This document shows, in pieces, positions 3,019 to 27,478 of a stretch of 33,492 nucleotides of DNA. Source of the DNA: an uncultured Bacilli bacterium (GTDB taxonomy: Bacteria; Bacillota_I; Bacilli_A; RF39; UBA660). The first letter of the stretch is position 1, and every line of letters starts with the position of its first letter. A program made the translations under genes and the position numbers. The stretch covers positions 1 through 33,492 of the forward strand of contig CALVRJ010000013.1 in NCBI GenBank assembly GCA_944358545.1, given 5' to 3'. The notes below the pieces were generated by a model that did not search any database, was not told the DNA's origin, and worked only from the letters and a program-made list of their open reading frames with translations.

Positions 3019-3095
3019 ATTGCACCTCTTCTTAAATTATAAAGCAAAAAAGCTAAAAAATATAGTCCTTTTACTTATAACTTTACCCATTTTAC

Positions 3096-3125
3096 AAAAA
3101 ATGATATCACAAGATATCACTTTTT
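3096..3125 (-). terminator. Intrinsic terminator after the YjdF-like gene
   Basis: On the minus strand TGATATC and GATATCA pair around a 4-nt loop, extended by an A-run against the U-run, and are followed by six Ts. The stem overlaps the TGA stop codon (3117-3119) of the upstream gene. This supports TGA being read as stop, and so the standard code. Confidence 0.8.
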
Positions 3126-3665
3126 ATTCTTAATATAATACCAAATGCTTACTAATATTGAACCACCAAAAGCTACTATAATATCCATCATCGTATCAGT
3201 AACGCCAGTTTCCACAACCTTTTGTGCATCTCCACCAAACAAAGCATTACATACAAATTCAAATATTTCCCAAAGTCCTGAACATAAAAAACTAAAAGAA
3301 ATAATAAATAAAATTCCAAACCATAAATTGTTAATTTTTAAATGTTTCAAAATTAAAGTTGCCACATATCCACTAAGTACTCCTGATATTGTATGAGTCA
3401 CTTTATCAAAACCTAGTACACTATCATACCAAACTAAAATCACCCCTAAATAATGAGCCATAAATATAAATATTATCCAAATAAAAGTAAGCCCATTATT
3501 TATTTTTATTTTAAATAGCCTTTCAATAATAAAAGGTAAACTGACAGTTAAAATAATACTTAAATTCTTAAGTAAAACGACAATACCTTCATATGGCTGT
3601 GAAACTATCGTTAAAAGTGCGATAACGGATATTGTTAAAACTAGTATTATATTAATCTTCTTCAT
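3117..3665 (-). CDS. YjdF/DUF2238-like integral membrane protein
   Basis: The 182-aa protein is almost entirely hydrophobic with about five to six predicted membrane helices. The pattern resembles YjdF-type (DUF2238) proteins: a D-K-x-x-H motif after the third helix (FDKVTHTISG, about residue 86), then WE-x-x-E-F (about 133-138) and a D-T-M-M-D motif before the last helix (about 157-162). The conserved charged residues in helices suggest metal or lipid interaction, but the family's function is not established. The ATG lies inside the end of rmuC with a 14-bp overlap, and the AGAGGTGG in rmuC can serve as ribosome binding site. Assignment is from motif layout only. Confidence 0.65.
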   Translation of the reverse strand: MKKINIILVLTISVIALLTIVSQPYEGIVVLLKNLSIILTVSLPFIIERLFKIKINNGLTFIWIIFIFMAHYLGVILVWYDSVLGFDKVTHTISGVLSGYVATLILKHLKINNLWFGILFIISFSFLCSGLWEIFEFVCNALFGGDAQKVVETGVTDTMMDIIVAFGGSILVSIWYYIKNKK

Positions 3666-5705: not shown

Positions 5706-5731
5706 AAAAAATAAATCCCAAAGGATTTATT
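5706..5731 (-). terminator. Intrinsic terminator of the coupling-protein gene
   Basis: On the minus strand AATAAATCC and GGATTTATT form a 9-bp stem with a 4-nt loop, followed by a T-run. The upstream arm overlaps the TAA stop at 5727-5729. This marks the 3' end of the secretion locus. Confidence 0.88.
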
Positions 5732-8129
5732 CATCATCATCTGCAAAGAAATCATCAAAGAATTGATCATCTGTAACATAATTACTATCATTTTTAGACG
5801 GTTCAGCTTTAATATTATTTAAAGTATCATGCTTAACCTCAGCTTTATTTTCTTTAGAAGTATTCTTAATCTCCATCTTAGAAACTTCATTTCTTTTTTC
5901 ATTTTCTAAGCGAACTTCTTTATTGACATTACTTGTAATTTTAGCCGCAAAATCCATAACTTTTTTATTTTTAATTTCAGGCTTTTTAGTTTCGTTATCT
6001 TTTACATTATCAGATTTCTTTACATCTTTATCTTTTGAAACATCGCTTACATTATTTTTAGAAGAAATAACTTCCACCGGCTTAACTGAAATATTATCTT
6101 TTTTAACAGACTCAGTCCGTTCTTTAACTGCTCCTGGTTTAATAACCTCTTTTACTTCTTGAGCCGGTTTTATAGCTGGCATTTTAATTGGATCAATCTT
6201 TCCAACAGGAGTTCCCTCACTAGCTTTCTTTTGAGCCTCCGCTTGCGCAATTTTCTCATCCATGCTCTTTAAAATAGCACCAAAATCAAGCGATGACTTA
6301 GGAGGTGTAATTGGTTTTGACTTATTCGCATTATTTTCCTGTGTCATTCTACTAATCATTTGATTTATTTGCTCTTGATCATGTTCTTTTTTCTTTTCAT
6401 CGACAAAAATCTTTAAATCAAACACATGAACCTTTTGCTTCTCTCTCGTTGGATATTCAGCTTTTTCGTAAGTTTCACCCCAATCAATTTGGTAATCTAA
6501 CTTTAATTTAGTCCTAAATGGATTACACCTAGTTCTCAGCAAAATAATTTCGCCGACTTTTAATTTCTGTAAATCACTAATGGTAATTAAAGGCCTAGTC
6601 TCTTCAATCGCTTTACCATCTTTATCTTTCTTGTCAGTCTTAACTTTTACTTCCCCACACATCTTACTAATTTCTTCTAATGCTGCAAGTTCAGTACTAA
6701 TCAAATAAACTATATTTGTACAGTTACCTTTAATCGTATCGCCTTTTTCCTTACCATAAACTTCAGATAATTGAGCAAAGTTCTGAATAACAAAGAAAAA
6801 TCTCATCTTTCTACTACGAGCTGCTGAAACCATCGCATCGACATCTTTAAGTGGTGGCATATTCGCAAACTCATCCAGTAAGAAGTTTGTTCTATAAGGA
6901 AGTTTTCCTCCACATTTTTGAGCATAATCAACAAGTGTTTCATAACATTGTTTAAGGAAAATTGTTACCAAAGAATGATATGTTTTCTTTTCATCCTGAA
7001 TAACTATAAATACAGCTGTTTTCTTTCTACCAATATCTTCAAACTCAAAATCACTATGTGAAAGCATTTCAGATAAATTATCTCTTGAAGCAAAAAGCCT
7101 AATCTTTTGCTGGAAAACAGAAATAATACTTCCTCGAGTTTCAGAAGGTGCCGAAATAGTTGAAGACGCACTTACATAAGCCGAAGAAGCCGGATCTTTA
7201 GTAAGCTTAAAATATTCATTCGCATAAACAGAACGAGCTCCACACTTCTCTTCTCCCACTGTTGTAAATAAATTAATACTATTTAAATTAATTTCATCAG
7301 GCTGTGCATCTTCAAACAAACCTAAACAAATACCTGAAAAATAGTTTGCTGAAGTATTTTGCCAAAATGGATCGTTATTTTGTCCAGCTTCATCATACAA
7401 AATATTTGCCGCTAGGTCATCAGTAAGCTCGTTTGCCTTATCAATATTACCCTCTTTATAATATTTATAAGGTAAATGAAGTGGATTCCAACCACTACCT
7501 TGTTGTGGATTACGGAAATTAAGTAAAATTACATTATACCCTCTAGCTTTAAGCATATTTGCTGTTGTTTCATAAATTTCACCTTTAGGATCCGTAATAA
7601 TCATTGATTCATCGTGTTTAGCCAAAGAATGAACTAATGGGAAAATTGCAACCTGGGTTTTACCCGCACCAGTAGAACCGATAATAAGTGTATGAGCCTC
7701 ACTATTATCAACCCACATAAATTTCCCATCATTAATTAAAGGAAGACCCCCAGCTTCTGCTTTTTTAGCCTTTACATCGACTTTAACTAACTCTTTTTTT
7801 AGTTCACTATCTTTCATCCATCTAGAATAACCTTTAGACTCTTTTTTTACATCAGTTCCGAAACCGATACCTTTATCCCTGTCAAAAAACTTATCTTTAA
7901 CTGATACAATACAAGCAACTAAAGCAATAATATAACAAGGAATAGTTATTCCAATATAATCCGGACCTAAAGCTGGAAACGGATTCAAGCCATAAAATAA
8001 ATGATCTAAATCACCTTTTGCAAACTGTATAATATTAAGTACAGCTATACAAACAATATACAAAAGAATGACACAAAATCCTCCAAACATTGCCCAATCT
8101 TTAGGTTCTGCATTAAATTTTAATTTCAT
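5727..8129 (-). CDS. VirD4/TraG-type type IV coupling protein
   Basis: Type IV coupling proteins are inner-membrane ATPases that recruit substrates (DNA-protein complexes or proteins) and feed them to the channel. The 800-aa product has two N-terminal TM helices (about 13-34 and 56-77), Walker A GSTGAGKT (151-158) and Walker B FLLDEFANMPP (about 416-426), the family's signature. The nucleotide-binding fold ends near 590. A charged Lys/Glu/Pro-rich, probably disordered tail (about 590-780) and an acidic end DDQFFDDFFADDDE follow. I chose ATG at 8129 with AGGAGGT 6 nt upstream; an extension to 8150 lacks one. No relaxase is nearby, so the substrate may be protein or an unlinked DNA. Confidence 0.94.
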   Translation of the reverse strand: MKLKFNAEPKDWAMFGGFCVILLYIVCIAVLNIIQFAKGDLDHLFYGLNPFPALGPDYIGITIPCYIIALVACIVSVKDKFFDRDKGIGFGTDVKKESKGYSRWMKDSELKKELVKVDVKAKKAEAGGLPLINDGKFMWVDNSEAHTLIIGSTGAGKTQVAIFPLVHSLAKHDESMIITDPKGEIYETTANMLKARGYNVILLNFRNPQQGSGWNPLHLPYKYYKEGNIDKANELTDDLAANILYDEAGQNNDPFWQNTSANYFSGICLGLFEDAQPDEINLNSINLFTTVGEEKCGARSVYANEYFKLTKDPASSAYVSASSTISAPSETRGSIISVFQQKIRLFASRDNLSEMLSHSDFEFEDIGRKKTAVFIVIQDEKKTYHSLVTIFLKQCYETLVDYAQKCGGKLPYRTNFLLDEFANMPPLKDVDAMVSAARSRKMRFFFVIQNFAQLSEVYGKEKGDTIKGNCTNIVYLISTELAALEEISKMCGEVKVKTDKKDKDGKAIEETRPLITISDLQKLKVGEIILLRTRCNPFRTKLKLDYQIDWGETYEKAEYPTREKQKVHVFDLKIFVDEKKKEHDQEQINQMISRMTQENNANKSKPITPPKSSLDFGAILKSMDEKIAQAEAQKKASEGTPVGKIDPIKMPAIKPAQEVKEVIKPGAVKERTESVKKDNISVKPVEVISSKNNVSDVSKDKDVKKSDNVKDNETKKPEIKNKKVMDFAAKITSNVNKEVRLENEKRNEVSKMEIKNTSKENKAEVKHDTLNNIKAEPSKNDSNYVTDDQFFDDFFADDDE

Positions 8130-8168
8130 CTCTAGACCTCCTAAAAACAAAAGTTCAATAGTAACATT

Positions 8169-9707: not shown

Positions 9708-9742
9708 AAAAATTTCTAATAAAATATATTAGAAATTTTTTT
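9706..9742. terminator. Bidirectional terminator between convergent genes
   Basis: A 16-bp near-perfect AT stem (9706-9721 with 9727-9742, core AATTTCTAATA) with a 5-nt loop has A-run and T-run flanks. It ends both the plus-strand gene (stop at 9707) and the long minus-strand secretion operon (stop at 9742). Confidence 0.92.
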
Positions 9743-12216
9743 TACCATATAGAACCTAAGTTAGTCGCACTAGTAACTCTCTTACCGCCCCACTCACTAA
9801 ACCATCCATTGTTACCTGGATTACCATATTGATTATAGTAAGCTCTTGCAACCTCAAATTCTATAACATTTTGTCCATTATTATGACCCCATTCATTACA
9901 ACCTGGGTCGTTAGGATTTTTAATATCGGCAATAATACAAGGAATCTTTGTACCATCACTTAAATAGAAATCAACTTTATCACCAACTTGACCATAAGTT
10001 GTTGTACAAGCAATTAAATATCTTCCATCGTATGTTGCTATACCATTATCGTATTTTGCTCCACTTGGAAGCCAATAATTATAATATAAGTTACCTTGAT
10101 TTGAATTCTCTGCCCATTGCCAACTATTATCACTATTACTATAGAACGTAACCGTATAACCACCATTACCATATTCAGCTGGAATAGTAATTTCTCCAGA
10201 CGCTCCATCTTCCGGTAAACATAAATCAGCTGCGTTTGAACCACTTAATCTATATATATATTGATAATTATGTCTACCTTCACTATATGACGCAATACTA
10301 ATTTCATTACCTGAACTATCACCAGAACGTCCGTCCATATCATAATGAGCTGCAATTTCTTTTATTTCGCCATTTTCATTACTATAAATAGTAGTCGTAT
10401 GTCCACTAACACCAGGTCGCGGATCAACAACTATATCACCTGCCTGTAAACTATTCCTATCATATGGAATTTGTTCAAAACCAGCGGCTGTCAAAACAGA
10501 ACCCATATTAGTTGTATTAAATGGACCTTGAGAAGCATCTAAAATACCAGCATTCACAAGTGAATAAAATACAAATGATGAACAATCATAATTTGGACCA
10601 TTTCTATTAGAGATACTATATCCATGACTATTATCATCAGCAATAGCTTCCATCGCTTTCAAAAACTTACTTACAGAATTATTAGCCTCGGCTGTTCCCG
10701 CCGGACTAGTACTTGAATTACCAGTACTTCCAAAAGCAACATCGTTCGCACAGAACAAATTATATGAATAAAGCGAATTACCTTTCCAAGCGTTCTGAAG
10801 AGTAACTAATCCCTGCTGTCCATTAGGTGCTGAAGGGTCCATAACATAAACATTTCCATTTTCAACATGATCAAACGCCACCCAGTGACCTAATGATAAA
10901 TACAAAACAATAAATGGTTGATGATTACCATTACATGGCGTATTTATAGCTTGACTTAATACCCCAGCAGCATTACTAACATTAACCGGAATATCTTGGC
11001 CAACCATTACGAAATTAGGTGCAATTCCTTGCCAACTATTCCAATATAAAGCACCACCTGTAAAACTTGCATTTTGGACAAATACCCCAGGATTAAAATT
11101 AGTAACCGTAAGTTGTGTCCCTGACTTTGCAATTAAATAAGACATTGAAGTAGCCGTACAACCAATATTACAAACATTACTTACACCACCTAGTGATAAA
11201 TTACTCCAAGGAGCTCCACACTGTCTCCAATTCGTAATATCGCCTGTTCCAACCGAACCAGCAGTATAAACACATTCGTCCTCTTCCTCAGGGAATAATT
11301 GTCTATAAAATTTAGCAAATTCAATTATGTTGTCTGCCGCTTCCTTTTTTGCTCTATCCTTAGCCGCGCCTTCAGGCATATTTTTAATATCTTCAAATGT
11401 TCCTCCGATAAAACCATGCTGACAAATATCCATTGAATTGAACATTTTTACTACTGAATCTGCTGCATTTCCATCTGAATCACCAAAACCAAAAAAATCC
11501 ATAATCATATCAATTGGTTGAAAAATAAGATTTTTTATACTACCAATAGCTGAACCCACTGTTTCCGCTACACAAGCAACACCATTTACAACAAAATTAT
11601 TCGACCCAAATCCAGGATTTTGTAATGCTTCTTTATAACTATCCTCGTTATACTTGCCATCTACAGTCGAATTATACATAATAATTGCCGCTGCATCAAC
11701 TAAATCTATTTCTTCTTGATCTATACCATTATATCCATCACTACTAGTTGTCGATAATCCCTCAAAAAATTTTTTTACAGAATCTGTAAAACTGTCTTCA
11801 TCATAATCAGCATCATATTGTGCATCCATTACCTCATAATAATCACCTTGAAATAAAACTGTTGATGCCAAAACAACTTTGTCAATTCTGCCATTACTAT
11901 TTTCAGCAATAATATCTATTTTAGAAACAAACTGAGCTTCTTTCTTTTTTTCAAGATCTTCATTTGAACACAATATACAAGCTTGATTAAACGTATTTTC
12001 AATTCTATCGACATTTTCTTGTACTAAACCCAAAAAATAGGAAACAACACCCAAAACAACCATTATTAAAATAAAGAAAAAAGATGCCCCCGCAATTATT
12101 CCAAAAAGCATAAGTTTTGCCTTAGCCTTAAAAAAGCCGCCAACTAAATTTGTTGGATCTAATCCGGCTTTTGAAGCTTTCTTACTTAAAAAACTTAAAC
12201 CTAATTTAGGAAGCAT
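9742..12216 (-). CDS. VirB1-like cell-wall hydrolase: TM + C39-type peptidase + NlpC/P60 + beta-barrel-like domain
   Basis: This 824-aa protein probably opens peptidoglycan for the secretion channel. One TM helix (about 35-64) follows a basic N-terminus. Residues 70-320 are unassigned. A papain-like C39-type domain (about 325-490) shows Q332, C353 (NIGCTATS), H444 (LGHWVAF) and D460. An NlpC/P60 domain (about 510-660) shows C545 (YDCSSF), H606 (SGHTTTIY) and H624 (AAHYD). The C-terminus (about 675-790: GRYLIACTTTYGQVGD, CIIADIK, VIEFEV) resembles the double-psi-barrel-like tail found in related conjugation hydrolases. Gram-positive T4SS hydrolases usually pair a lytic transglycosylase with NlpC/P60; the C39 domain here is unusual. 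Start: GGTGGTGA 4 nt upstream of ATG. Confidence 0.88.
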   Translation of the reverse strand: MLPKLGLSFLSKKASKAGLDPTNLVGGFFKAKAKLMLFGIIAGASFFFILIMVVLGVVSYFLGLVQENVDRIENTFNQACILCSNEDLEKKKEAQFVSKIDIIAENSNGRIDKVVLASTVLFQGDYYEVMDAQYDADYDEDSFTDSVKKFFEGLSTTSSDGYNGIDQEEIDLVDAAAIIMYNSTVDGKYNEDSYKEALQNPGFGSNNFVVNGVACVAETVGSAIGSIKNLIFQPIDMIMDFFGFGDSDGNAADSVVKMFNSMDICQHGFIGGTFEDIKNMPEGAAKDRAKKEAADNIIEFAKFYRQLFPEEEDECVYTAGSVGTGDITNWRQCGAPWSNLSLGGVSNVCNIGCTATSMSYLIAKSGTQLTVTNFNPGVFVQNASFTGGALYWNSWQGIAPNFVMVGQDIPVNVSNAAGVLSQAINTPCNGNHQPFIVLYLSLGHWVAFDHVENGNVYVMDPSAPNGQQGLVTLQNAWKGNSLYSYNLFCANDVAFGSTGNSSTSPAGTAEANNSVSKFLKAMEAIADDNSHGYSISNRNGPNYDCSSFVFYSLVNAGILDASQGPFNTTNMGSVLTAAGFEQIPYDRNSLQAGDIVVDPRPGVSGHTTTIYSNENGEIKEIAAHYDMDGRSGDSSGNEISIASYSEGRHNYQYIYRLSGSNAADLCLPEDGASGEITIPAEYGNGGYTVTFYSNSDNSWQWAENSNQGNLYYNYWLPSGAKYDNGIATYDGRYLIACTTTYGQVGDKVDFYLSDGTKIPCIIADIKNPNDPGCNEWGHNNGQNVIEFEVARAYYNQYGNPGNNGWFSEWGGKRVTSATNLGSIW

Positions 12217-17329: not shown

Positions 17330-18274
17330 TTATTCGCCAACCCCACAAAGTGGATCATCTTTATTAACACCAGCTATATTAGCTACACCGTTAATAGTTT
17401 GTATTGCAAAAGTAACAATTACTGGTGCAAGCAATAATACAATTAAACATATTATTCTTGTTTTTAAGCCTTTAAGAAAATTTCTAAAGCCTTCTTCAGT
17501 ACCAACAATTGCTTTTACTCCATCCAGTACTGAAAGTAACACAACCAAAATAATACCAATTATACTTACCCATGTAAATATAGTATTAAGTAAACTTTGC
17601 ATGCTGGAATCTATTAAACTACAATCACCCTGCTCATTTCCGTAATTAGCACCAGACTTATTATTCCAATAATCTTTAATAGAACCCACGTCAGTCAAAT
17701 TATTTTCAGGTGTTTCATCAGCACTTGTATCACCAGGAGTGGTAGTATTAGTAGTTCCCTCCTGAAAAATTTTATCATCATCAATTGTAATAATTGCACC
17801 TTCGTCATTGCTCTCATTTTTTTCACTAAGTGACATTGTAGTTATATTTTTTGCACCAGCATCTTCAGCTGCCTTTTGTGTAAGATATACAGAATCCATG
17901 TTAAAGCCTGTAGAACCCGCTAAATATAAATAATTAGGACATTTCCACTGTTTATCTTTATAAAATTTATTTTTAATTTTATTTGCTCCAAGCAATCTCA
18001 TATTAGTTGGAGCTGCTCCATTTGCAAAAACATTTGAAGTATCACTATAAATTAAAAAATTACTTACAAACTTGCCATTCTCATTCATATAAACTTTAGT
18101 TTCCAAACGGTAGGTTGATGGGTTTTCAGTTACAGCTGTTTGAAATTGATTATATGTACATATTGCAAAGCCATTTTTTGTCTTTATATCGGCAGCAAAA
18201 ACAGAAGAAGAAAACACAAAACATAAACCAAGTACCGTCAAAATTCCAAGCGTTACCTTATAAATGTTATTCAT
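17330..18274 (-). CDS. Extended VirB2-like protein (copy 2)
   Basis: The 314-aa product has a signal peptide (MNNIYKVTL...VFAAD, about 1-28), a secreted N-terminal domain (30-150), an acidic/Thr-rich linker, and a C-terminal pilin-like module. That module has two TM helices (TIFTWVSIIGIILVVLLSV and IICLIVLLLAPVIVTFAI) joined by a basic loop, the layout of VirB2/TrbC pilins. A Cys before helix 1 (GDCSLID) and after helix 2 (PLCGVGE) would lie outside and may pair. The C-terminal ~120 residues are nearly identical to the adjacent copy 1. ATG at 18274 has GGGGTGA upstream; an in-frame ATG at 18328 lies within the -10 region and is not credible. Confidence 0.82.
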   Translation of the reverse strand: MNNIYKVTLGILTVLGLCFVFSSSVFAADIKTKNGFAICTYNQFQTAVTENPSTYRLETKVYMNENGKFVSNFLIYSDTSNVFANGAAPTNMRLLGANKIKNKFYKDKQWKCPNYLYLAGSTGFNMDSVYLTQKAAEDAGAKNITTMSLSEKNESNDEGAIITIDDDKIFQEGTTNTTTPGDTSADETPENNLTDVGSIKDYWNNKSGANYGNEQGDCSLIDSSMQSLLNTIFTWVSIIGIILVVLLSVLDGVKAIVGTEEGFRNFLKGLKTRIICLIVLLLAPVIVTFAIQTINGVANIAGVNKDDPLCGVGE

Positions 18275-18326
18275 TGGTAAAATCACCCCAATTAATCTAA
18301 AAAAGACAAAAAACCATACTATATAC

Positions 18327-18335
18327 ATTATAACA
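18327..18335 (-). promoter_or_regulatory. Extended -10 promoter before VirB2-like copy 2
   Basis: TGTTATAAT on the minus strand (TATAAT at 18332-18327) lies in the 92-bp gap between the two extended VirB2-like genes, about 53 bp upstream of the start. The -35 is weak (TATTAT at 17 bp). Confidence 0.5.
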
Positions 18336-18366
18336 TAAAAAACTATTTAATAATATATAAAATTAA

Positions 18367-19329
18367 TTATTCGCCAACCCCGCAAAGCGGATCGTTACTA
18401 TTAACACCAGCTATATTGGCAACCCCATTAATAGTTTGTACTGCAAACGTAACAATTGTCGGGGCAAGTAATAATACGATTAAACATATTATCCTTGTTT
18501 TTAAACCTTTAACAAAGTCCCTTAATCCATCATCTGTACCGACAATAGCTTTTACTCCATCTAATACTGAAAGTACTACAACCAAAATAATTCCGATTAT
18601 ACTTATCCACGTAAATATAGTATTAAGTAAATCTTGCATGCTTGAATCTATTAAACTACAATCTCCTTGTTCATTTCCATAATTAGCCCCTGACTTATTA
18701 TTCCAATAATCTTTTATTGACTGCGTATCGGCTAAGGTACTAGTCGCACTATTGTCTTTTTTAGTTTCATCTTTCTCCTCTTCTTTAGTAGTTGAACCAC
18801 CTGTAACACTAGAACCTGTCTGACTACCCTTATCATTAAAAACCGCATTCTTCTTATTACTTATATTATTTGAACTTTTATCTAATATCAAATTATAACA
18901 GGCAATTCCAGGAGTACAGTTAGTTCCAAAAACTAAATTACCACCTTTACTAAAATTCTTCATATCTAAAAAAGTAAAAGTTACATTATTTTCCGCACAA
19001 GAAAACTTTTTATTTTTATAGAAAAAAGACATCATTAAATCATTATCTCTATTATAAGAATCATAATTAGGCAATGGAACATTCGTTGAACTATTATCAC
19101 TTGCAACCAAATCAACATCCGCTCCAGTCTTCACTTTGCCATCTTTACTATAATAAACCCAAGTTCTCGCAACTAAAGTTTTACCTTGAAAGCCAGAAAC
19201 AGTATAACGACAAAACGCATATCCATTTTTAGTTTCAGTTCGTTTAGTAGGCAAAGCAGCATCTACACTCCTTATTCCAAAAAATAAAAACATACTAAAA
19301 CACAGTAACAAACATATAATTTTCTTCAT
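18367..19329 (-). CDS. Extended VirB2-like protein (copy 1)
   Basis: The 320-aa product is a paralog of the next gene. It has a signal peptide (MKKIICLLLCFSMFLFFG...VDA, about 1-24), a secreted domain with four Cys (FCRY, FSCAE, NCTPGIACY), a Lys/Glu/Thr linker (about 185-210) and the two-helix pilin-like module (about 240-310) ending DPLCGVGE. Known VirB2 pilins are short, so an exposed ~180-residue domain ahead of the pilin module is unusual and might decorate the channel or bind a partner. I chose ATG at 19329, 9 nt after AGGTG; the GTG at 19341 lies inside that site. Confidence 0.82.
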   Translation of the reverse strand: MKKIICLLLCFSMFLFFGIRSVDAALPTKRTETKNGYAFCRYTVSGFQGKTLVARTWVYYSKDGKVKTGADVDLVASDNSSTNVPLPNYDSYNRDNDLMMSFFYKNKKFSCAENNVTFTFLDMKNFSKGGNLVFGTNCTPGIACYNLILDKSSNNISNKKNAVFNDKGSQTGSSVTGGSTTKEEEKDETKKDNSATSTLADTQSIKDYWNNKSGANYGNEQGDCSLIDSSMQDLLNTIFTWISIIGIILVVVLSVLDGVKAIVGTDDGLRDFVKGLKTRIICLIVLLLAPTIVTFAVQTINGVANIAGVNSNDPLCGVGE

Positions 19330-19390
19330 ATAAGGTCTCACCTATCCTTATTTAATTATATCATGCATTTCAAAAATAATATATAACAAA

Positions 19391-19422
19391 CAAAAAAATA
19401 TAAGAAATAAACTTATATTTTT
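19391..19422 (-). terminator. Intrinsic terminator of the short-pilin unit
   Basis: On the minus strand AAAAATATAAG and CTTATATTTTT form an 11-bp stem with a 7-nt loop, followed by Ts. It ends right after the second short VirB2-like gene, so the two short pilins (20227-19421) form a self-contained unit. Confidence 0.85.
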
Positions 19423-19846
19423 ACACATTATCAGATGAATCATTCGAATTTTCATCAGTTTGAGCATTATTACTTGGTTCATCATCAACACCGTTAATGA
19501 ATTTCTTTGTACAACCCCAAACATCAGTAATCGTTTGACCATCACTAGATTGTTCTTCGACACTTGATACTAAATTTACTGCAAATTGAACAATTATAAC
19601 AATCAAGAATACTACCAAAGCTGATATTAATCTTGAAATAAAAGATTTTTGATATTTCTTAATATCTTCCTCTTTCTTTGCTACAACTGACTTTGCAAAA
19701 TCAAGCATACCCCAAATGATAAGTAAAATTGGCACTACAATTTTTATCATTTGAATAATTGTTGATACTAGGTTAAAAAGTTCATTTGGAATTAAAATTC
19801 CGTTACATAAAGTAGAATTACCGTCTAAAACATTAAATAAGTTCAT
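19421..19846 (-). CDS. Short VirB2-like pilin candidate (copy 2)
   Basis: The 141-aa product has two TM helices (IVVPILLIIWGMLDFAKSVV and LVVFLIVIIVQFAVNLV) with a basic cytoplasmic loop (KKEEDIKKYQKSF), the VirB2/TrbC pilin topology. A Cys precedes helix 1 (TLCNG) and another follows helix 2 (WGCTKKF). The tail is Asn/Asp/Ser-rich. It has no classical signal peptide. ATG at 19846 has AGGTG 6 nt upstream; the GTG at 19855 is less likely. It lies 15 bp after copy 1, and the IIWGMLDFAK core is identical in both. A structural subunit of the secretion machine is the most likely role. Confidence 0.78.
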   Translation of the reverse strand: MNLFNVLDGNSTLCNGILIPNELFNLVSTIIQMIKIVVPILLIIWGMLDFAKSVVAKKEEDIKKYQKSFISRLISALVVFLIVIIVQFAVNLVSSVEEQSSDGQTITDVWGCTKKFINGVDDEPSNNAQTDENSNDSSDNV

Positions 19847-19861
19847 AATGTTCACCTACTT

Positions 19862-20227
19862 TTAACCTTGACCATCTTGACCATTAATCAATGCTTTAGC
19901 ACATGTCCATGCAGAACCAGATTGATCACTATTAGCTTGAAGGTTACCAACAATATTAATTGCAAGTTGAACAATTGTTACAATTAAAAATACGATTAAA
20001 GCTGCAATAAGTCTTTTCATAAATTTACTTTGACCAGCTTTAATATCATCTTCTTTTTGAGCAATAACTGCTTTTGCAAAATCAAGCATACCCCAAATGA
20101 TAAGTAAAAGTGGTACTACAATTTGAAATGCCACAAAAACTAAATGTACAAGTTTACCAATAGCAGTTGGAATACCTTGTCCACCAAGTGCAGTTTGACA
20201 AAAATCCAAAGTACTAATTAAATCCAT
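19862..20227 (-). CDS. Short VirB2-like pilin candidate (copy 1)
   Basis: The 121-aa product shares the two-helix layout with the next gene: helix 1 VVPLLLIIWGMLDFAKAVIA, loop QKEDDIKAGQSKFMKR, helix 2 LIAALIVFLIVTIVQLAINIV. Cys residues before helix 1 (DFCQTAL) and after helix 2 (WTCAKAL) should lie on the same outer face. It has one of the strongest translation signals in the window (AGAGGAGGT 6 nt before ATG) and a near-consensus promoter with an operator-like dyad, so it is probably abundant. I favour the major VirB2-type subunit of the T4SS module. Confidence 0.8.
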   Translation of the reverse strand: MDLISTLDFCQTALGGQGIPTAIGKLVHLVFVAFQIVVPLLLIIWGMLDFAKAVIAQKEDDIKAGQSKFMKRLIAALIVFLIVTIVQLAINIVGNLQANSDQSGSAWTCAKALINGQDGQG

Positions 20228-20307: not shown

Positions 20308-21318
20308 TTATTTAAACATTCCAAATAAACCTTTTTTATCGCCTTTACTTCCACTATCACCATTTTGTTTATAAAAGCCAAGCTTTTCTAAAAACTTATT
20401 AAGTTCAACACTATCGTCTAATTGATCATTAAGTGGTGGAATAGTTCCAAAAATATCGAGTTTAGTCTCATAACTAAAATCAGAAACATCCTGTTCACTA
20501 AGTAAACATTTATTCAAAACAACCTTTTTATTCTTATAATTTTCAAGAGCTCTCGGGCTTCTTGCAAGCAATTTATTTATTTGAATCTTTGAAGGCTCAA
20601 GTAAATAAATTGTTTCATTTGCTAAAGTATCAGCCGCCGGGCTATTATTTGCATCTATCAAAATAATATCTGCATTACCATATTTTTGAATAGCATTTCC
20701 TAGTTCACTATTAGAAACACTATACATTTTATCTTCATCAAAGTACATAAAATCATGTTTGTCAACCTCGATAGCCACAACATTATAATTATGTGCAAGT
20801 TGTCTTTTAGCAATATAAACAAGAGTTGTTGCTCCAGCGTTCTGTGTAACATCCTTAAAACTAATAACCACATTACTCTTTACATTCTGTAATGTAGGTG
20901 AAGTTTGATAAGTCCCCATCTCATCAGTATGCACAGTATCAAGTTGATGATACTGAGCTACATCACGATAACTATTTGGATGACTATATAAATACTTTAC
21001 ACCTTCGACATTCATCGTAAAATTATAAATCCTCATTGAAATCAAATCAGATAAATACTCAGGAGCTGAAGTTTCTGGAGAACCATCCAAAAGTAATATT
21101 ACTCTATCCATGTCTAAAGAAAGAGATAATTTCTGTAAAGTTTTAATATCCTTATAATTTTTCAAAGCAGTTATATCTAAAATCATCTTTTGAAAATAGA
21201 AATTTTTAAAAGTTTCGATTATCTCATCTACGCTAAACTCACCTTCTAGTTTCTTTATAACCTCTATATCTAAACTAGCTAGAGCATCACGATACTTATT
21301 TGCAACAATTACATTCAT
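20308..21318 (-). CDS. tadZ: TadZ/CpaE-like pilus localisation protein with degenerate P-loop
   Basis: TadZ/CpaE proteins position the Tad apparatus at a cell site. The 336-aa product has an N-terminal receiver-like region (about 35-125) and a ParA/MinD-like domain (150-310). The expected P-loop reads FKDVTQNAGATTLVYIAK (154-171): it keeps the GxTT end but has Ala where the catalytic Lys should be, so nucleotide binding may be altered. DIILIDANNSPAAD replaces the usual D-x-P region, and VVLNKC matches the MinD nucleotide-base strand. Atypical P-loops are known in TadZ. The gene follows the TadE/F-like genes; GGAGGG lies 6 nt before ATG. Confidence 0.82.
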   Translation of the reverse strand: MNVIVANKYRDALASLDIEVIKKLEGEFSVDEIIETFKNFYFQKMILDITALKNYKDIKTLQKLSLSLDMDRVILLLDGSPETSAPEYLSDLISMRIYNFTMNVEGVKYLYSHPNSYRDVAQYHQLDTVHTDEMGTYQTSPTLQNVKSNVVISFKDVTQNAGATTLVYIAKRQLAHNYNVVAIEVDKHDFMYFDEDKMYSVSNSELGNAIQKYGNADIILIDANNSPAADTLANETIYLLEPSKIQINKLLARSPRALENYKNKKVVLNKCLLSEQDVSDFSYETKLDIFGTIPPLNDQLDDSVELNKFLEKLGFYKQNGDSGSKGDKKGLFGMFK

Positions 21319-22474: not shown

Positions 22475-22708
22475 TTACTTGTTATTTGCACTTCGTGTAC
22501 AAGTTGAATAACCGCTTGGATCGTATTGTTTATTACCACCACTTGTGCATTTACCACTCTTCCAAACACCTCCGGCATCTGTACAACAAGCTCTATTAGC
22601 AGTATTACTCATCAAACTGTTAATAAGTGGAGTAACAACAGCAACGATAACACCGATTAAGATAATTGCAACAACTGTTAAGTTTGCTTCACCTGCAGCT
22701 TCTTTCAT
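22475..22708 (-). CDS. Flp-like major pilin candidate
   Basis: The 77-aa product has an N-terminal hydrophobic helix (NLTVVAIILIGVIVAVVTPLI, about 9-29) and a short C-terminal part with four Cys (ACC, KCT, TCT). Size, single helix and place beside TadC and the TadE/F-like genes fit a Flp-type pilin. The N-terminus MKEAAGEANL lacks a long basic prepilin leader; if cleaved at AAG/EANL the leader would be six residues. It has its own extended -10 promoter and a downstream attenuator, which fits a highly expressed structural subunit. GGTGGTGA is the ribosome binding site. Confidence 0.8.
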   Translation of the reverse strand: MKEAAGEANLTVVAIILIGVIVAVVTPLINSLMSNTANRACCTDAGGVWKSGKCTSGGNKQYDPSGYSTCTRSANNK

Positions 22709-22743
22709 CTAATATCACCACCTTACCTTCTACTCTATTTTAG

Positions 22744-22754
22744 ATTATAACACA
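22744..22754 (-). promoter_or_regulatory. Extended -10 promoter of the Flp-like pilin
   Basis: TGTGTTATAAT on the minus strand (TATAAT at 22749-22744) is about 36 bp upstream of the pilin start. No good -35 is seen at 16-18 bp. The 11-mer is identical to those before ssrA and before the first gene of the large operon. Confidence 0.65.
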
Positions 22755-22802
22755 TTTATATCATATTTTCTATAAAATAATATCAATTTAACTTTTACTT
22801 TA

Positions 22803-23594
22803 CTAATAATTCATCATCATCATCATAGATAGTAATAAAAATCCTAAAATACCACCACCGGTACAAAATAACATAATCATTGTTTTATTTTCCATTTTAT
22901 CAAGACGTTCTTTATATTTCTGCTCACGAGCCTTATTTTGAAGAGATGAAATAGTTCTTGAGAAAACAAGTAACTGTTCTTGCTTATTCTCTTGACTACC
23001 CAAACCTAAACGATAAAGAAGTCTCATCATTCGCATTGAATCACGAACTGGGTATTCATTTGCAAAATCCATATAAGGCTGAACACTAGAATCACCAGCA
23101 TCAATCTTTTGAACTAAAGTTCGAAGACCTGGTTTGAAGATTTCTGGGGCTGTATCAATTGATCTAGCTAAAGCAACTGGAACTGTATAATGTTGAATTA
23201 AAATTTCAAGTCCCTTTAAATAGTATGGAAGCATTAAATTAATTTTATGTAAATTTTGCTTATAATAATTTTTTAGATTAATATAAGGAAGTTTAAAAAC
23301 TAAAAATCCAATCAATAAAGAAAGTAAAATATAAGCAAATGTCAAGTTATTAAGGAAAATAAAGAACATAATTATAATTGTCAAAATTCCATTTCTAACT
23401 CTTTGACCAAAAAGCTTTTCAACATCGACATCACCATATCTTATACTAAGCAAGAACTTATAATCATCTTCCATCAAAAACATAAAATATGGCTCAGTTT
23501 CTTTAACAAATTTATGCGAACTAAAATGATTGTTAAAAGACAAAATAACAACAATTATAATTCCAATAATTATAAATAATAAACCTGTACTCAT
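22803..23594 (-). CDS. tadC: TadC-like pilus assembly platform protein
   Basis: TadB and TadC form the inner-membrane platform that couples the ATPase to pilin addition. The 263-aa product has TM helices near 4-20, 70-100 (two close helices) and 238-260, with a cytoplasmic T2SSF-like region between (LPYYLKGLEILIQHYTVPVALARSI... about 120-215). The start overlaps the tadB stop in TAATG, so the two are translationally coupled. Confidence 0.85.
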   Translation of the reverse strand: MSTGLLFIIIGIIIVVILSFNNHFSSHKFVKETEPYFMFLMEDDYKFLLSIRYGDVDVEKLFGQRVRNGILTIIIMFFIFLNNLTFAYILLSLLIGFLVFKLPYINLKNYYKQNLHKINLMLPYYLKGLEILIQHYTVPVALARSIDTAPEIFKPGLRTLVQKIDAGDSSVQPYMDFANEYPVRDSMRMMRLLYRLGLGSQENKQEQLLVFSRTISSLQNKAREQKYKERLDKMENKTMIMLFCTGGGILGFLLLSMMMMMNY

Positions 23595-24499
23595 TATTCC
23601 GCCCCCACATCTTCATTATAATATTTTTCACCAGATAAGATGAAATATGTATTAAGCCATATAATACCGTGAAGTAACAATACTACCCACCAGTCTTCTA
23701 GCATCTGGTTATAAGTCTCAATTCCAAGCATAAACTGAACAAGCATAACCATTAAATAAAGCATAATTCCAAATTGTAAAAACTTTTTATGGAATGTTGC
23801 TCTATCGATTCTATCTCGGTATACACTTTCAACAAGCATATCGATATCTTGACTCATATTTTCAAGTGATTCACCAGAATCTTTTGAACCTTCATTAGTT
23901 ATCTGTAAGAAAAGTTGATGCATATTTCTAACAATATAGAAATCATATTTAGAATTCATATAAGTAATAGACTGCTCAACGGTACCATTTTCATAAGCTA
24001 AATCAATCATCATTTTAACATCAGATTTAACGGGATCTTCAAGTACATTCGAACTATAAACACCTTCCAATGCTTTAACAAATGATTGTGTCGTTGCAAA
24101 TTCCATAATAGTGTTTGTTGTATAAACCTGAATTTGCTCAAATATAAACTCACTGTAAAGCCTCTTACATCTTAAATAAGTTAAATAAGGAATAACAGCT
24201 ACAGCTGCAATTGCATAAATAATTGAAACTATAATATTATAGAAATACAAATATGTTACAACAGCAGCTCCAACTGCAAAGACAATTACCTGAATTGCAT
24301 ATTGTCTTGGCGTATATTCTTGACCAAGCTCCTTTACCTTTTCGCGAACCACTTTAAATGAATAAGGAGCATATCGATCATATAACGCACCTACTTTTTT
24401 GTTTATAAACTTATAAACATTATTTGAATTGCTATTGTTACGATACAAAATTATAAACACAGCAATTGCTAAAACGACTAAAAATATTGCTATTGTCAT
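23594..24499 (-). CDS. tadB: TadB-like pilus assembly platform protein
   Basis: The 301-aa product has an N-terminal TM helix (1-19), paired helices around 68-108, a T2SSF-type cytoplasmic domain (about 120-240: FIFEQIQVYTTNTIMEF...GESLENMSQDIDMLVE), and two C-terminal helices (about 244-290). This is the normal TadB layout. It sits between tadA and tadC; AGGAGGT lies 7 nt before ATG. Confidence 0.87.
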   Translation of the reverse strand: MTIAIFLVVLAIAVFIILYRNNSNSNNVYKFINKKVGALYDRYAPYSFKVVREKVKELGQEYTPRQYAIQVIVFAVGAAVVTYLYFYNIIVSIIYAIAAVAVIPYLTYLRCKRLYSEFIFEQIQVYTTNTIMEFATTQSFVKALEGVYSSNVLEDPVKSDVKMMIDLAYENGTVEQSITYMNSKYDFYIVRNMHQLFLQITNEGSKDSGESLENMSQDIDMLVESVYRDRIDRATFHKKFLQFGIMLYLMVMLVQFMLGIETYNQMLEDWWVVLLLHGIIWLNTYFILSGEKYYNEDVGAE

Positions 24500-24513
24500 A
24501 TAATCAACCTCCT

Positions 24514-25986
24514 TTATTCAAATAAATTTTCAGTTCCTGTATTAGTCTGTTTAGGCCCTTGTTGTTGGCTAGTTACAGCCGAATCAAAAGCATTCGAAAA
24601 TATACTACCTGAACTATCAGGTTTTACATAGCCTTGATTTGTATTTACATTACTTTGAACTGTTCCATTCAAAGTTGTGTTATTAAAAGTATTTTGATTA
24701 ACAACCTGATTAGAATTATTTAATGGGCTAACCGTTTGTGTATTTTGTATAGTTTGAGTATTAACACTATTTTGAACTGGTTTTACTTGTGCAGCTACAT
24801 TTGAATTAGAAACTTGCGAATTAAGTAAATTAATAGTGTTTTCCTTAACTTCTGGAATTTCACCTTGTTTAGTATTTGAACCATCTTTAACAAAATTATT
24901 GTTATCAGTACCTTCTTCCTCCGGTTCTCCAGCCAAATTCTGAAGTTCTTTTGGTAAAAATACACCTTGAATTTCCAAATAATCAATTAAATATGGACTT
25001 GGATTATTTCTAATAACCTTGCCATCTGCTCCTTTTCGATAAATAACATTATGCTTAGCCTCATTAGTATCCTCAGTTACATAAAATTCAGTTACCTCAG
25101 CAATCTCTCTTTTAAATTGATGGGTTGCCTTATCAGTATAACCTCTTACATATATACCAATTTGAATATATCTACAAATGGATTTTATAAACTGATCCAT
25201 ATCCTGGCTAGTCTCAAGTAAACTATACATACGACTTGGAATAGAAGAAGCCTTATCCGCATGGATAGTAGACAAAATATAGTGACCTGATGAAATTGAG
25301 TTACGAACAGCCATAACTGCTTCAGCACTACGAACCTCGGAAAGTAAAATCCATTTTGGATTCTGTCTCATACATGCTTCCAATATATCAGTATATGTTG
25401 CAATATTATTAGTTTTCATCGATACAATATCGCGTGTTGGAAAAATCTTATCAAGGTGAAGCTCCAAAGTATCTTCGATTGTAATAATTTTTTCATTTTC
25501 AGCAATCTTAGAAGCTAAATACTTAATAAGCTCTGTTTTACCTGAACCAGTTTCACCACAAGCAATAATATTACAGTGACCTAACACACATTGTTCAAGA
25601 AAATCAATAATATCAAGTTCAACATATTTTTCAGCAACAATTTTATCTTTTTGTAATCGTATTTTTGCCGGTGTTTTACGAACAACACAAGCAATGCCAT
25701 TCTGAGCAATTGAATCATGAACAAATGCTAAACGAAGTTCAGCACTTTCAGCATCCAAGAATGGATGAGCCATATTAAAGGTTTTACCCATAACATTTGA
25801 ACACTGAAAGGCTAATTTCTCCATAAAAGTATTATTAACTTCCTTATTCTCAATTCTAAATATACCTTTAGATAAAGTCTTTAACCATACCTGACCACCA
25901 TTATCATAAGAAATATCAGTAATATCATCATCTTCCAAATATGGCTTCAGAGGACCGAAGTCAATTTGGTCGAACATATTATTCAT
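24514..25986 (-). CDS. tadA: TadA/CpaF-type secretion ATPase with long Asn/Gln-rich tail
   Basis: This hexameric GspE/VirB11-superfamily ATPase powers pilus assembly. The 490-aa product has an N-terminal domain (1-130), Walker A GETGSGKT (144-151), an Asp box IITIEDTLEL (167-176), a Walker B-type WILLSEVRSAEA (212-223) and a His box GHYILSTIHAD (234-244). All key residues are present. After the core, residues ~350-490 form an Asn/Gln/Thr-rich tail that ordinary CpaF proteins lack. As a VirB11 relative it could also serve the neighbouring T4SS module, which has no other VirB11. GAGGAG lies 9 nt before ATG. Confidence 0.92.
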   Translation of the reverse strand: MNNMFDQIDFGPLKPYLEDDDITDISYDNGGQVWLKTLSKGIFRIENKEVNNTFMEKLAFQCSNVMGKTFNMAHPFLDAESAELRLAFVHDSIAQNGIACVVRKTPAKIRLQKDKIVAEKYVELDIIDFLEQCVLGHCNIIACGETGSGKTELIKYLASKIAENEKIITIEDTLELHLDKIFPTRDIVSMKTNNIATYTDILEACMRQNPKWILLSEVRSAEAVMAVRNSISSGHYILSTIHADKASSIPSRMYSLLETSQDMDQFIKSICRYIQIGIYVRGYTDKATHQFKREIAEVTEFYVTEDTNEAKHNVIYRKGADGKVIRNNPSPYLIDYLEIQGVFLPKELQNLAGEPEEEGTDNNNFVKDGSNTKQGEIPEVKENTINLLNSQVSNSNVAAQVKPVQNSVNTQTIQNTQTVSPLNNSNQVVNQNTFNNTTLNGTVQSNVNTNQGYVKPDSSGSIFSNAFDSAVTSQQQGPKQTNTGTENLFE

Positions 25987-25992
25987 AAAATA

Positions 25993-27042
25993 TTACTCCT
26001 CATCATTTGCCATTGGTACACTAGTAGTGGCAGTATGAACTTCACCAGTCGCAATTTCTGTAACTGAAGCAGTTAAATTACCATCATTCTTAAATGTAAC
26101 TGTAACTTTTTTTCTATTTACAATAATAGGATCTTCATCATCCACAGTATAAGAACAAGTATAATCAGTTCCACATCCCTCAGGGAATTTAATAGTCATC
26201 TTCATATTATTATTTTTGTTAGATGAGAATGTAGGTACTAAATCACTTGCATCGTTTGAACCATCATCGATAGGTATATCAACAGAGTGTGCATTAATAT
26301 AGTCAACAAGTTGTTGTGTAGAAATTTCAGTAGCTCCTTGATTTGGTGCTTGACCACCATGAGGTACTGGATAAAGTTCAACACCTAAATCATCCATATA
26401 AGATGCTTTCTTAAGTAAACTATACATATTTCCAGGTAAACCAAATATCAACATTGAAGGACTTCTCTCTTCAGATGTATTTTCAAATACAGCCTTACCA
26501 GATGAATCCTTAACAGCTAAAACCTCAATATTTTCAATAAGTTTACCAACCATAATTGGCTCTTCCTCACCATTACCGACTTTCATAAAGATGTCAATTT
26601 TATTTCCAGGGAAAATTGAATTACCATAAGTAGTTTCCATATCAACAGGGAAATTATAAACTACTTCTCCAGCTTTTACTTTGGTAAATGCTGCATCAGG
26701 AAGTTCACTTTCGCTAATTACTGTATCAGTATAAAACATACTTCCCTCAGGAATAACTGTATTGATATTAGAATATTTTCCAACAATCTGACTTCGATCT
26801 TGAATTACATTGTCAGAAACTGAAATATTTGGCATATCAATTTCCTGAACCATATCATCGGTAATTTCAGTTCTAGGTTGAATTGTTTCAGTTGCAACCG
26901 GTATAGTTACCGGTTCAACCGCTTGATTAATTTGCGTACTATAACCAACATAAAGTAATACTAAAATAATAATTACTCCAATAATGGTTACCGTATTTTT
27001 GTTTTTAAAAAATCTTTTAAATGACGCCGTTACGCTTTCCAT
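25993..27042 (-). CDS. cpaB: CpaB/RcpC-like pilus assembly protein (SAF domain)
   Basis: The 349-aa product has a short cytoplasmic part, one TM helix (17-35) and an extracytoplasmic SAF-like domain (about 44-108: VTIPVATETIQPRTEITDDMV...VIPEGSMFY), then a CpaB-type domain (about 115-225 with VDMETTYGNSIFPGNKIDIFM). The C-terminal domain (about 270-349) is rich in beta-strand-like sequence and has a likely Cys pair (GCGTDYTCSY). In diderms CpaB works with the secretin; here, with no secretin gene, it probably acts in the cell wall space. It directly precedes tadA. Confidence 0.85.
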   Translation of the reverse strand: MESVTASFKRFFKNKNTVTIIGVIIILVLLYVGYSTQINQAVEPVTIPVATETIQPRTEITDDMVQEIDMPNISVSDNVIQDRSQIVGKYSNINTVIPEGSMFYTDTVISESELPDAAFTKVKAGEVVYNFPVDMETTYGNSIFPGNKIDIFMKVGNGEEEPIMVGKLIENIEVLAVKDSSGKAVFENTSEERSPSMLIFGLPGNMYSLLKKASYMDDLGVELYPVPHGGQAPNQGATEISTQQLVDYINAHSVDIPIDDGSNDASDLVPTFSSNKNNNMKMTIKFPEGCGTDYTCSYTVDDEDPIIVNRKKVTVTFKNDGNLTASVTEIATGEVHTATTSVPMANDEE

Positions 27043-27070
27043 ATTTTCTCCTTCTTTCTATTCTCTATTT

Positions 27071-27478
27071 TTAATAAGGGGTCTCCAAAATTGCATCAAT
27101 TCTATTAGATAAATTAAAGTTAAATGTATCACCACTCATACCATTAGAACCAAGTACACCACTTGAAACTCTAATACTTACCTTTGGTGGTTTTTCATTT
27201 ATATCGTAAAAACTAATCTTATATTCTCTAGACCTGCTAGCACTTTCTGCATATCTTCTAATAAAGTTCTCAGCAAACTTTTCACGATTAATTCTTACCT
27301 CACCTGTTGCTCTATATGATGCATAATCAAACGAATCCCACATAGCCGCTTCGGTAACTTCCTTTAAAAGCTGTGAATTATGCTCATCAACATTTGTCAA
27401 ATTTTGAAACAAGAATATAAAGATAATTCCAGCCACACCGAGCATTACAACAAACATGCCCCAAAATGACTCTTTCAT
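27071..27478 (-). CDS. TadE-like single-helix protein
   Basis: The 135-aa product starts MKESFWGMFVVML, with one TM helix (about 7-26), then a polar domain including NIDEHN-like and YRATGEVRINREKFAENFIRRYAES. It has no cysteine, unlike the other exported proteins of the locus. The place between the giant Cys-rich gene and cpaB, and the N-terminal form shared with the other pilin-like proteins, suggest a TadE-like minor subunit. It starts 3 bp after the upstream gene's stop. Confidence 0.7.
   Translation of the reverse strand: MKESFWGMFVVMLGVAGIIFIFLFQNLTNVDEHNSQLLKEVTEAAMWDSFDYASYRATGEVRINREKFAENFIRRYAESASRSREYKISFYDINEKPPKVSIRVSSGVLGSNGMSGDTFNFNLSNRIDAILETPY

Follow-up and report, generated by a model that had tools for sequence, protein, structure and literature searches.

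Why should a secretion locus encode four pilin-like proteins side by side, two short and two long? The question is raised by contig CALVRJ010000013.1, a 33,492-base contig of the 1.38 Mb draft genome of an uncultured Bacilli bacterium (labelled WIN or G000), which we analysed at full length and call the window. A sequence-only reading had recognized a Cys-helix-basic loop-helix-Cys plan in the products of four adjacent minus-strand genes, likened them to VirB2, the pilin of type IV secretion systems (T4SSs), derived each pair from a tandem duplication and suggested a heteropolymeric pilus or channel. That interpretation is partly supported, being right in direction and wrong on why the long pair is alike. 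Our best reading is that the four proteins are the pilin set of a chromosomal, relaxase-less T4SS co-inherited with a Tad-like pilus, and that they would form a heteropolymeric filament or channel in which exchangeable heads serve as variable recognition domains. We give this reading a probability of about 0.6; its assembly, exposure and substrate are what we infer.

All four genes lie at the positions given, and their products, named A to D in gene order, have the described plan. Among genus-level relatives the Cys pair around the hairpin is present in 31/31 A proteins, 32/32 B proteins and 47/47 complete long cores (the set of 52 cores less 5 truncated at contig ends). AlphaFold2 returned, with middling confidence, two-helix hairpins for A (residues 21-55 and 59-97; mean predicted local distance difference test score, pLDDT, 69.5) and the core of C (residues 229-263 and 266-306; block pLDDT ~71-80, whole-model mean 52). 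Hydropathy, these hairpins and the alignments agree on a pair of hydrophobic helices with a short basic loop between them, the VirB2-type architecture, and the genes lie next to T4SS core genes (VirB6, VirB3, VirB4 and VirD4), as VirB2-type pilin genes do. C and D begin with a signal-peptide-like segment and a head of ~200 amino acids (aa) ahead of the hairpin, both absent from A and B; AlphaFold2 modelled the heads poorly, with a few strands. Identity is 48% between A and B, 50% between C and D, and 22-30% between short and long proteins over the hairpin.

The likeness of C and D is unevenly distributed, with cores 88% identical (DNA 86%) and heads 38% (DNA 51%). To see this in relatives, 52 extended pilins were cut into head and core. 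All 11 in-cluster pairs, from nine genomes (G000, G014, G020, G017 with three pairs, G019, G334, G327, G335 and G332; the G019 pair is spread over two contigs), combine core identities of 87-98% with head identities of 27-44%, against a median of 42% for cores and 26% for heads over the 1299 different-genome pairs of the comparison set. For the 25 proteins from genomes with several non-upstream copies, the nearest neighbour came from the same genome for 15 cores and for no head; label shuffling reached at most 7 in 10,000 tries. Of the 10 cores whose nearest neighbour lay in another genome, four belong to the sister species G019 and G334 and six to G022, G330 and G342. Homogenization was also seen outside the cluster, where the two off-cluster extended pilins of G332 are 97% identical in the core and 53% in the head. 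At the level of sequence, these comparisons show C and D cores that are kept near-identical within each genome, with heads that diverge and seem to move between genomes. C and D can be described as modular pilins, each a common core with an exchangeable head.

Tandem duplication, the earlier explanation for both pairs, fits the short pair as an old event; a recent duplication does not account for the likeness of the long pair. In favour of a recent duplication followed by fast drift of the heads, with neither gene conversion nor head exchange, the number of long pilins per cluster varies from 1 to 3, which shows that duplications and losses occur; the trees contradict it. The C and D heads of WIN, G019 and G334 reject the by-genome tree (log-likelihood difference 136, approximately unbiased test P = 4e-34), and the cores reject the by-orthologue tree (difference 66, P = 2e-50, with the G019_C core cut at 72 codons), so that each part rejects the grouping of the other. 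This conflict indicates that the long pair predates the split of the three genomes and that the cores were homogenized afterwards. A head ~98% identical across species, between flanks mostly 80-90% identical, is also at odds with drift. For these three genomes recent duplication is already refuted unless the contigs are chimeric, and we consider it very improbable overall.

The near-identical head links the window to G019, Candidatus Coprosoma intestinipullorum, the closest named relative by VirD4 (84% identity, locus L047). In a codon alignment of the two C genes, 10 differences fall in the first 540 bases, followed by 19-26 per 60 bases in full windows; along the DNA, identity is 91-99% from window position 19357 to ~18800 and 48-72% thereafter. 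Most 100-base windows of the flanking Tad and VirB4 genes are 80-90% identical, some lower, and TadZ has a synonymous divergence (dS) of 1.0 for this pair. The reverse pattern was found between G019 and G334, which are 96.8% identical in four flanking genes and only 73% in the C heads. Heads of G004, G018 and G333 have a dS of 0.40-0.48, against 0.68-1.10 for TadZ and TadB.

All these genomes are metagenome-assembled and G019_C lies at a contig end, which raises the question of whether the apparent exchange of heads arose during assembly, when reads from related species sharing a metagenome could have been joined at repeated cores. Of 36 contigs, 13 stop within a long pilin gene or no more than 170 bases from one, in keeping with such joins. 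A chimeric G019_C, however, would need two exact joins within 800 bases; 8 genomes other than G019 show the core/head contrast within one contig; and the L089/L090 loci described below lie on whole, well-embedded contigs. An artefact is thus a highly unlikely source of the pattern. In 16 of the 36 contigs a pilin is the outermost locus gene at the fetched end, and assemblies may break at pilins through repeats or strain variation. Because possession of pilins was the criterion for choosing these contigs, such ends are no more than suggestive of hypervariability.

Beyond the genus, DNA identity between L089 and L090 is 94-98% upstream and mostly 92-100% downstream. Their extended pilin gene starts at 95% identity, after which ~700 bases of the head are unalignable; identity falls to 57-93% over the core and the initial part of VirB6, and to 70-81% in the short pilin. 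Conserved flanks around an unalignable head suggest that the surface-facing part of the locus is probably also its variable part. The first part of VirB6 (~2750-3600) is itself far more divergent than its flanks between these near-identical genomes.

The short pair behaves differently. Median identity is 58% among A proteins and 70% among B proteins, both of which are found across the genus, and A and B are no more alike within a genome (46%) than between genomes (47%), which argues for an old duplication. By these identities A and B are shown to be old, stable paralogues that have escaped homogenization.

The mixed complement itself, a central element of the sequence-only reading, turned out to be the conserved state. 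In 42/42 complete loci (TadZ and VirB6 in order, on one strand and in one stretch; L096 and L153 look like the same contig) the pilins lie between TadZ and VirB6, numbering two in 22 loci, three in 14 and four in 6, and never one. Judged by lengths and hydrophobic segments, no locus lacks a short hairpin protein, nor a pilin that bears an additional hydrophobic segment at its N-terminus. Genus-level loci carry two short pilins first, then one to three extended ones; L143 (G023), with two short pilins and no preceding TadZ, is an exception to the usual order. A further class of extended pilins with its own core type lies away from the cluster in L127, L130, L137, L170, L172, L173 and L176, and the off-cluster extended pilins of G014, G020 and G335 lie close to the Tad-like operon at its upstream end, in one case in opposite orientation. 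One relative has a 334-aa integrase-like open reading frame between short pilin B and the extended pilin (L135, 8981-9982, minus strand). An inserted recombinase acting as a general switch was considered and rejected, as the gaps of seven loci gave this one frame in this one relative.

Family searches agree with a T4SS pilin-like nature. C and D pass the curated cut-off of the Pfam family PF18895, T4SS_pilin (26.6 bits; scores in the table), and at E <= 0.01 PF18895 matches 11/17 long and 11/26 short proteins of the two alignments. In the profile search against VirB2/TrbC that had been suggested, PF04956 (VirB2/TrbC) had no match in the window's own genome at E <= 0.001, with controls matching in 3/14. 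The pilins are accordingly VirB2-like in architecture only and are not members of the TrbC/VirB2 family. None of the unrelated families named beforehand as refuting, holins and small transporters, emerged: profile scans gave no holin match, and seven-transmembrane matches were weak and under their cut-offs. MscL was rejected too, its Pfam profile scoring 15.3-16.6 bits (cut-off 27.4) and its NCBIfam profiles 16-20 (cut-offs 180-197). Identity with Tad/Flp pilins was rejected as well, all four proteins having two helices after any signal peptide and no Flp family match. In NCBIfam the hairpins weakly match two membrane proteins of Mycoplasma integrative conjugative elements (ICEs), Mbov_0396 and MMCAP2_0566, and PHROGs gave one weak match of A and B to a family with no function assigned. 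A sequence-profile search of the PDB gave no credible match, and viral contigs searched with the D protein held no relatives.

The pilin genes are flanked by a Tad-like pilus operon on one side and a VirB6/VirB3/VirB4/VirD4 locus on the other (see table). The minus strand reads from a large secreted-type Cys-rich protein through DUF5411, CpaB, TadA, TadB/TadC-like, a small Flp-like, two TadE/F-like and a TadZ-like protein to short pilins A and B, extended pilins C and D, VirB6-like, PrgI-like, a split VirB4, a peptidoglycan hydrolase, VirD4, rhodanese, RmuC, DUF2238, RNase R, SmpB and tmRNA. TadA, CpaB, DUF5411, VirB4, VirD4 and the hydrolase are named from family matches (the RcpC match for CpaB just below cut-off), and TadB, TadC, TadZ, TadE/F, Flp and VirB6 from position, size and topology only, with no credible family match. 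No VirB5 candidate was seen at the locus.

Table. Coordinates of the pilin genes, their parts and the neighbouring genes in the window
Feature	Position	Strand	Remarks
Short pilin A, 121 aa	19862..20227	-	No signal peptide; Cys-helix-basic loop-helix-Cys; PF18895 only 12.6 bits
Short pilin B, 141 aa from ATG (144 aa from upstream GTG)	19421..19846	-	No signal peptide; same hairpin; PF18895 22.1 bits
Extended pilin C, 320 aa from ATG	18367..19329	-	Signal-peptide-like start, variable head, pilin core; PF18895 34.5 bits
Extended pilin D, 314 aa from inner ATG (332 aa from upstream ATG at 18328)	17330..18274	-	PF18895 33.5 bits
Head of C, 221 aa	18667..19329	-	N-terminal, presumed extracellular
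Part of C head matching G019 (Ca. Coprosoma intestinipullorum)	18790..19329	-	10/540 base differences, then match breaks off
Pilin core of C, 99 aa	18370..18666	-	Homogenized with D core
Pilin core of D, 99 aa	17333..17629	-	
VirB6-like polytopic membrane protein, 811 aa	14880..17315	-	Position and topology; no family match
PrgI/VirB3-like, 108 aa	14538..14864	-	Weak: PF12666 E 0.15
Separate N-terminal part of VirB4, 184 aa	14027..14581	-	NF045975 positions 93-276
VirB4 ATPase part, 594 aa	12243..14027	-	PF19044/PF12846; NF045975 positions 295-890, 351.7 bits
Membrane-anchored peptidoglycan hydrolase (Amidase_5)	9742..12216	-	VirB1-like role
Membrane-anchored protein, 187 aa	9144-9707	+	Antisense to operon, between g8215 and hydrolase
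VirD4 coupling ATPase	5727..8150	-	PF02534 E 3e-59; NF045973 311.7 bits, above cut-off
TadZ-like protein	20308..21318	-	Directly upstream of pilins; named by position; no family match
Tad-like pilus operon: small Flp-like, TadC- and TadB-like (by position), TadA, CpaB/RcpC, DUF5411	22475..27478	-	
TadA ATPase	24514-25986	-	T2SSE E 1.3e-27
CpaB/RcpC	25993-27042	-	RcpC E 1.5e-6, just below cut-off
DUF5411 protein	27071-27478	-	E 1e-53
Secreted-type protein, 1139 aa	27482-30901		~Six Cys-rich repeats; upstream end of Tad-like operon

This arrangement recurs. The C query matches 21/24 genomes of the genus (own genome included), 0/15 more distant genomes and 30/31 genomes reached through VirD4 loci, at least 13 of these 31 being the same as in the genus sample (identical places and scores). 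DUF5411 is above cut-off in 11/295 genomes of the phylum, all 11 belonging to the window's own family, and the gene order of the Tad-like operon is kept in relatives. The 126 loci searched gave matches to rhodanese in 69, RmuC in 55 and VirD4 in 82. Because the order VirB6-PrgI-VirB4-VirD4-rhodanese-RmuC recurs in loci of many genomes, a fixed chromosomal position is indicated, and the data point to a T4SS locus that holds the same chromosomal place across many uncultured Bacilli. The VirB4 split, two genes covering separate stretches of a single NCBIfam profile, is also recurrent (56 and 60 loci match the two profiles). The 187-aa membrane-anchored protein keeps its reversed orientation in many genus-level relatives, and the position of the 1139-aa Cys-rich protein is conserved.

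Could the locus instead be a decaying ICE, with the pilins as leftovers? Its ATPases invite the question: VirB4 is nearest Mbov_0397, a family from Mycoplasma ICEs, at 351.7 bits where the cut-off is 590, and VirD4 falls in the CD1115 conjugal family. Against decay, profile scans of the window proteins found no relaxase, the only PF03432 relaxase match of the genome lying beside another T4SS on contig C2, and the order from the pilins through VirB6, PrgI, VirB4, VirD4, rhodanese, RmuC and RNase R to SmpB recurs in many distant contigs with open frames. We find a decaying ICE barely credible. The T4SS on contig C2 (L141) is ordinary-looking, with a VirB4 of 785 aa, a VirD4 of 611 aa and the relaxase; its pilin-like candidate is one 108-aa signal-peptide-bearing frame lacking the Cys pair.

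T4SSs in general keep the basic pilin loop inside, extract the pilins by VirB4, stack them through VirB6 and open the peptidoglycan with a hydrolase. Applied to this locus, all four pilins would sit in the membrane as hairpins whose Cys-bearing ends both lie outside and whose basic loop lies inside, the two Cys facing each other. VirB4 would extract them and VirB6 stack them into a mixed filament or a short envelope-spanning tube, the hydrolase opening the peptidoglycan. A and B would make up the body, and C and D would join the same polymer via the common core, their heads decorating the surface or the tip. Since the cores must fit the same neighbours, gene conversion between the tandem copies would homogenize them, and uniform shared cores would in turn offer the homology for recombination that imports new heads. 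The heads could act as exchangeable recognition or decoy domains, directed at partner cells or at evasion of pilus phages or immunity, and head-bearing pilins could replace the separate VirB5-type adhesin of diderm systems. The overall role is most likely contact-dependent transfer with neighbouring cells; the relaxase-less locus argues against plain conjugation, with DNA uptake, effector delivery and adhesion as further candidates.

The core/head contrast can also be explained if C and D use their hairpin to anchor themselves in the membrane and not to polymerise, and are T4SS-associated surface adhesins or receptors docked onto VirB6 or A/B, with the channel built from A/B alone. A head of ~200 aa is bulky for a major pilin, a single docking partner would likewise require homogenized cores, and Gram-positive T4SSs are said to use surface adhesins instead of pili (PMC12102498, as far as its available text goes). 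By contrast, C and D give the best matches to the T4SS pilin family, above A and B, and the same hairpin and Cys pair are common to all four proteins. We judge an anchor unlikely, while taking it seriously.

Several observations weigh against the heteropolymer with exchangeable heads. A and B are under the PF18895 cut-off and are tied to C and D via hairpin identity. Foldseek and VIA-align on the model of A gave nothing above noise and no specific structural match; the Pyrobaculum conjugative pilus (8dft) ranked fifth (Z 6.8, root-mean-square deviation 3.9, 95 aligned), within noise for helical models. Among disulphide-forming genes, VKOR and Thioredoxin_4 were not found in the genome, other oxidoreductases not having been searched. 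Homogenization has exceptions: the two long pilins of G330, on two contigs and outside the 11 pairs, have cores just 47% identical, and extended pilins elsewhere in G014, G020, G004, G335, G332, G333, G022 and G342 are 32-47% identical in the core to those in the cluster. Pairwise ratios of nonsynonymous to synonymous divergence in the heads are 0.14-0.58, above TadZ and TadB in most pairs and below 1, leaving positive selection unsupported; our claim is limited to exchange and divergence of heads and does not extend to positive selection. Finally, the available part of a 2025 review reports VirB2 and VirB5 as absent from Gram-positive T4SSs except those of Patescibacteria (PMC12857230).

If the reading holds, a conserved multi-pilin T4SS in Bacillota would widen the known Gram-positive range of VirB2. 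The pattern also supplies an evolutionary argument for co-assembly, in that only the co-packing parts are kept uniform and the exposed parts vary. Because heads of different species sit on interchangeable cores, the locus would provide a naturally occurring model for studying recognition by a T4SS surface. Tentatively, and on balance with some doubt, we propose that reduced-genome gut Bacilli may hold a second monoderm lineage of VirB2-pilin T4SSs besides Patescibacteria: a chromosomal T4SS fused to a Tad-like locus, with a heteropolymeric surface structure, gene-converted cores and recognition heads circulating between species, for contact-dependent exchange with neighbouring cells.

The earlier statement that most T4SSs have one VirB2 is fair, with the reservation that multi-VirB2 systems are in print for Patescibacteria, Bartonella and Anaplasma. 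VirB2-type pilins in Bacillota and head/core modular pilins were not found in the open-access literature searched. The Mycoplasma ICE T4SS resembles this locus in its VirB4, the best family match, and in the weak hairpin matches to its membrane proteins; it is mobile with a one-piece VirB4 in the profile, whereas the locus here is chromosomal, has a split VirB4 and lacks a relaxase. Anaplasma phagocytophilum carries 8-15 copies of VirB2 that vary close to the N-terminal Cys and to the C-terminus, but it is diderm, with small pilins of usual size, and the accessible text describes no head/core modularity (PMC3556328). In the Bartonella Trw system, tandem subunits (TrwL = VirB2, TrwJ = VirB5) are thought to show variant surface forms for host recognition and, as here, there is no relaxase-driven transfer; unlike here, Trw is diderm, its pilins are short and headless, and VirB2 shares the task of variant recognition with a separate VirB5 (PMC2610397, from the sections available). 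A 2008 paper by Nystedt reportedly deals with concerted evolution of a Bartonella T4SS. Diderm systems, in the available part of the 2025 review, place a separate VirB5 adhesin at the pilus tip (PMC12857230).

From the portions of the literature available, the closest system in print is the T4SS of Patescibacteria, likewise monoderm, chromosomal, mostly relaxase-less, from reduced genomes, and combining PF18895/PF04956-type VirB2-like pilin arrays with a type IV pilus (PMC12102498, PMC12857230). The same portions do not describe an exchangeable head. Patescibacterial arrays comprise 2-11 VirB2 genes with a mean identity of 25% and a maximum of 54% (PMC12102498, same limits), in contrast to the long cores described here, which are 87-98% identical within a genome. 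The present locus further differs in belonging to Bacillota, in having a Tad-like operon as its neighbour and in its two fixed pilin classes.

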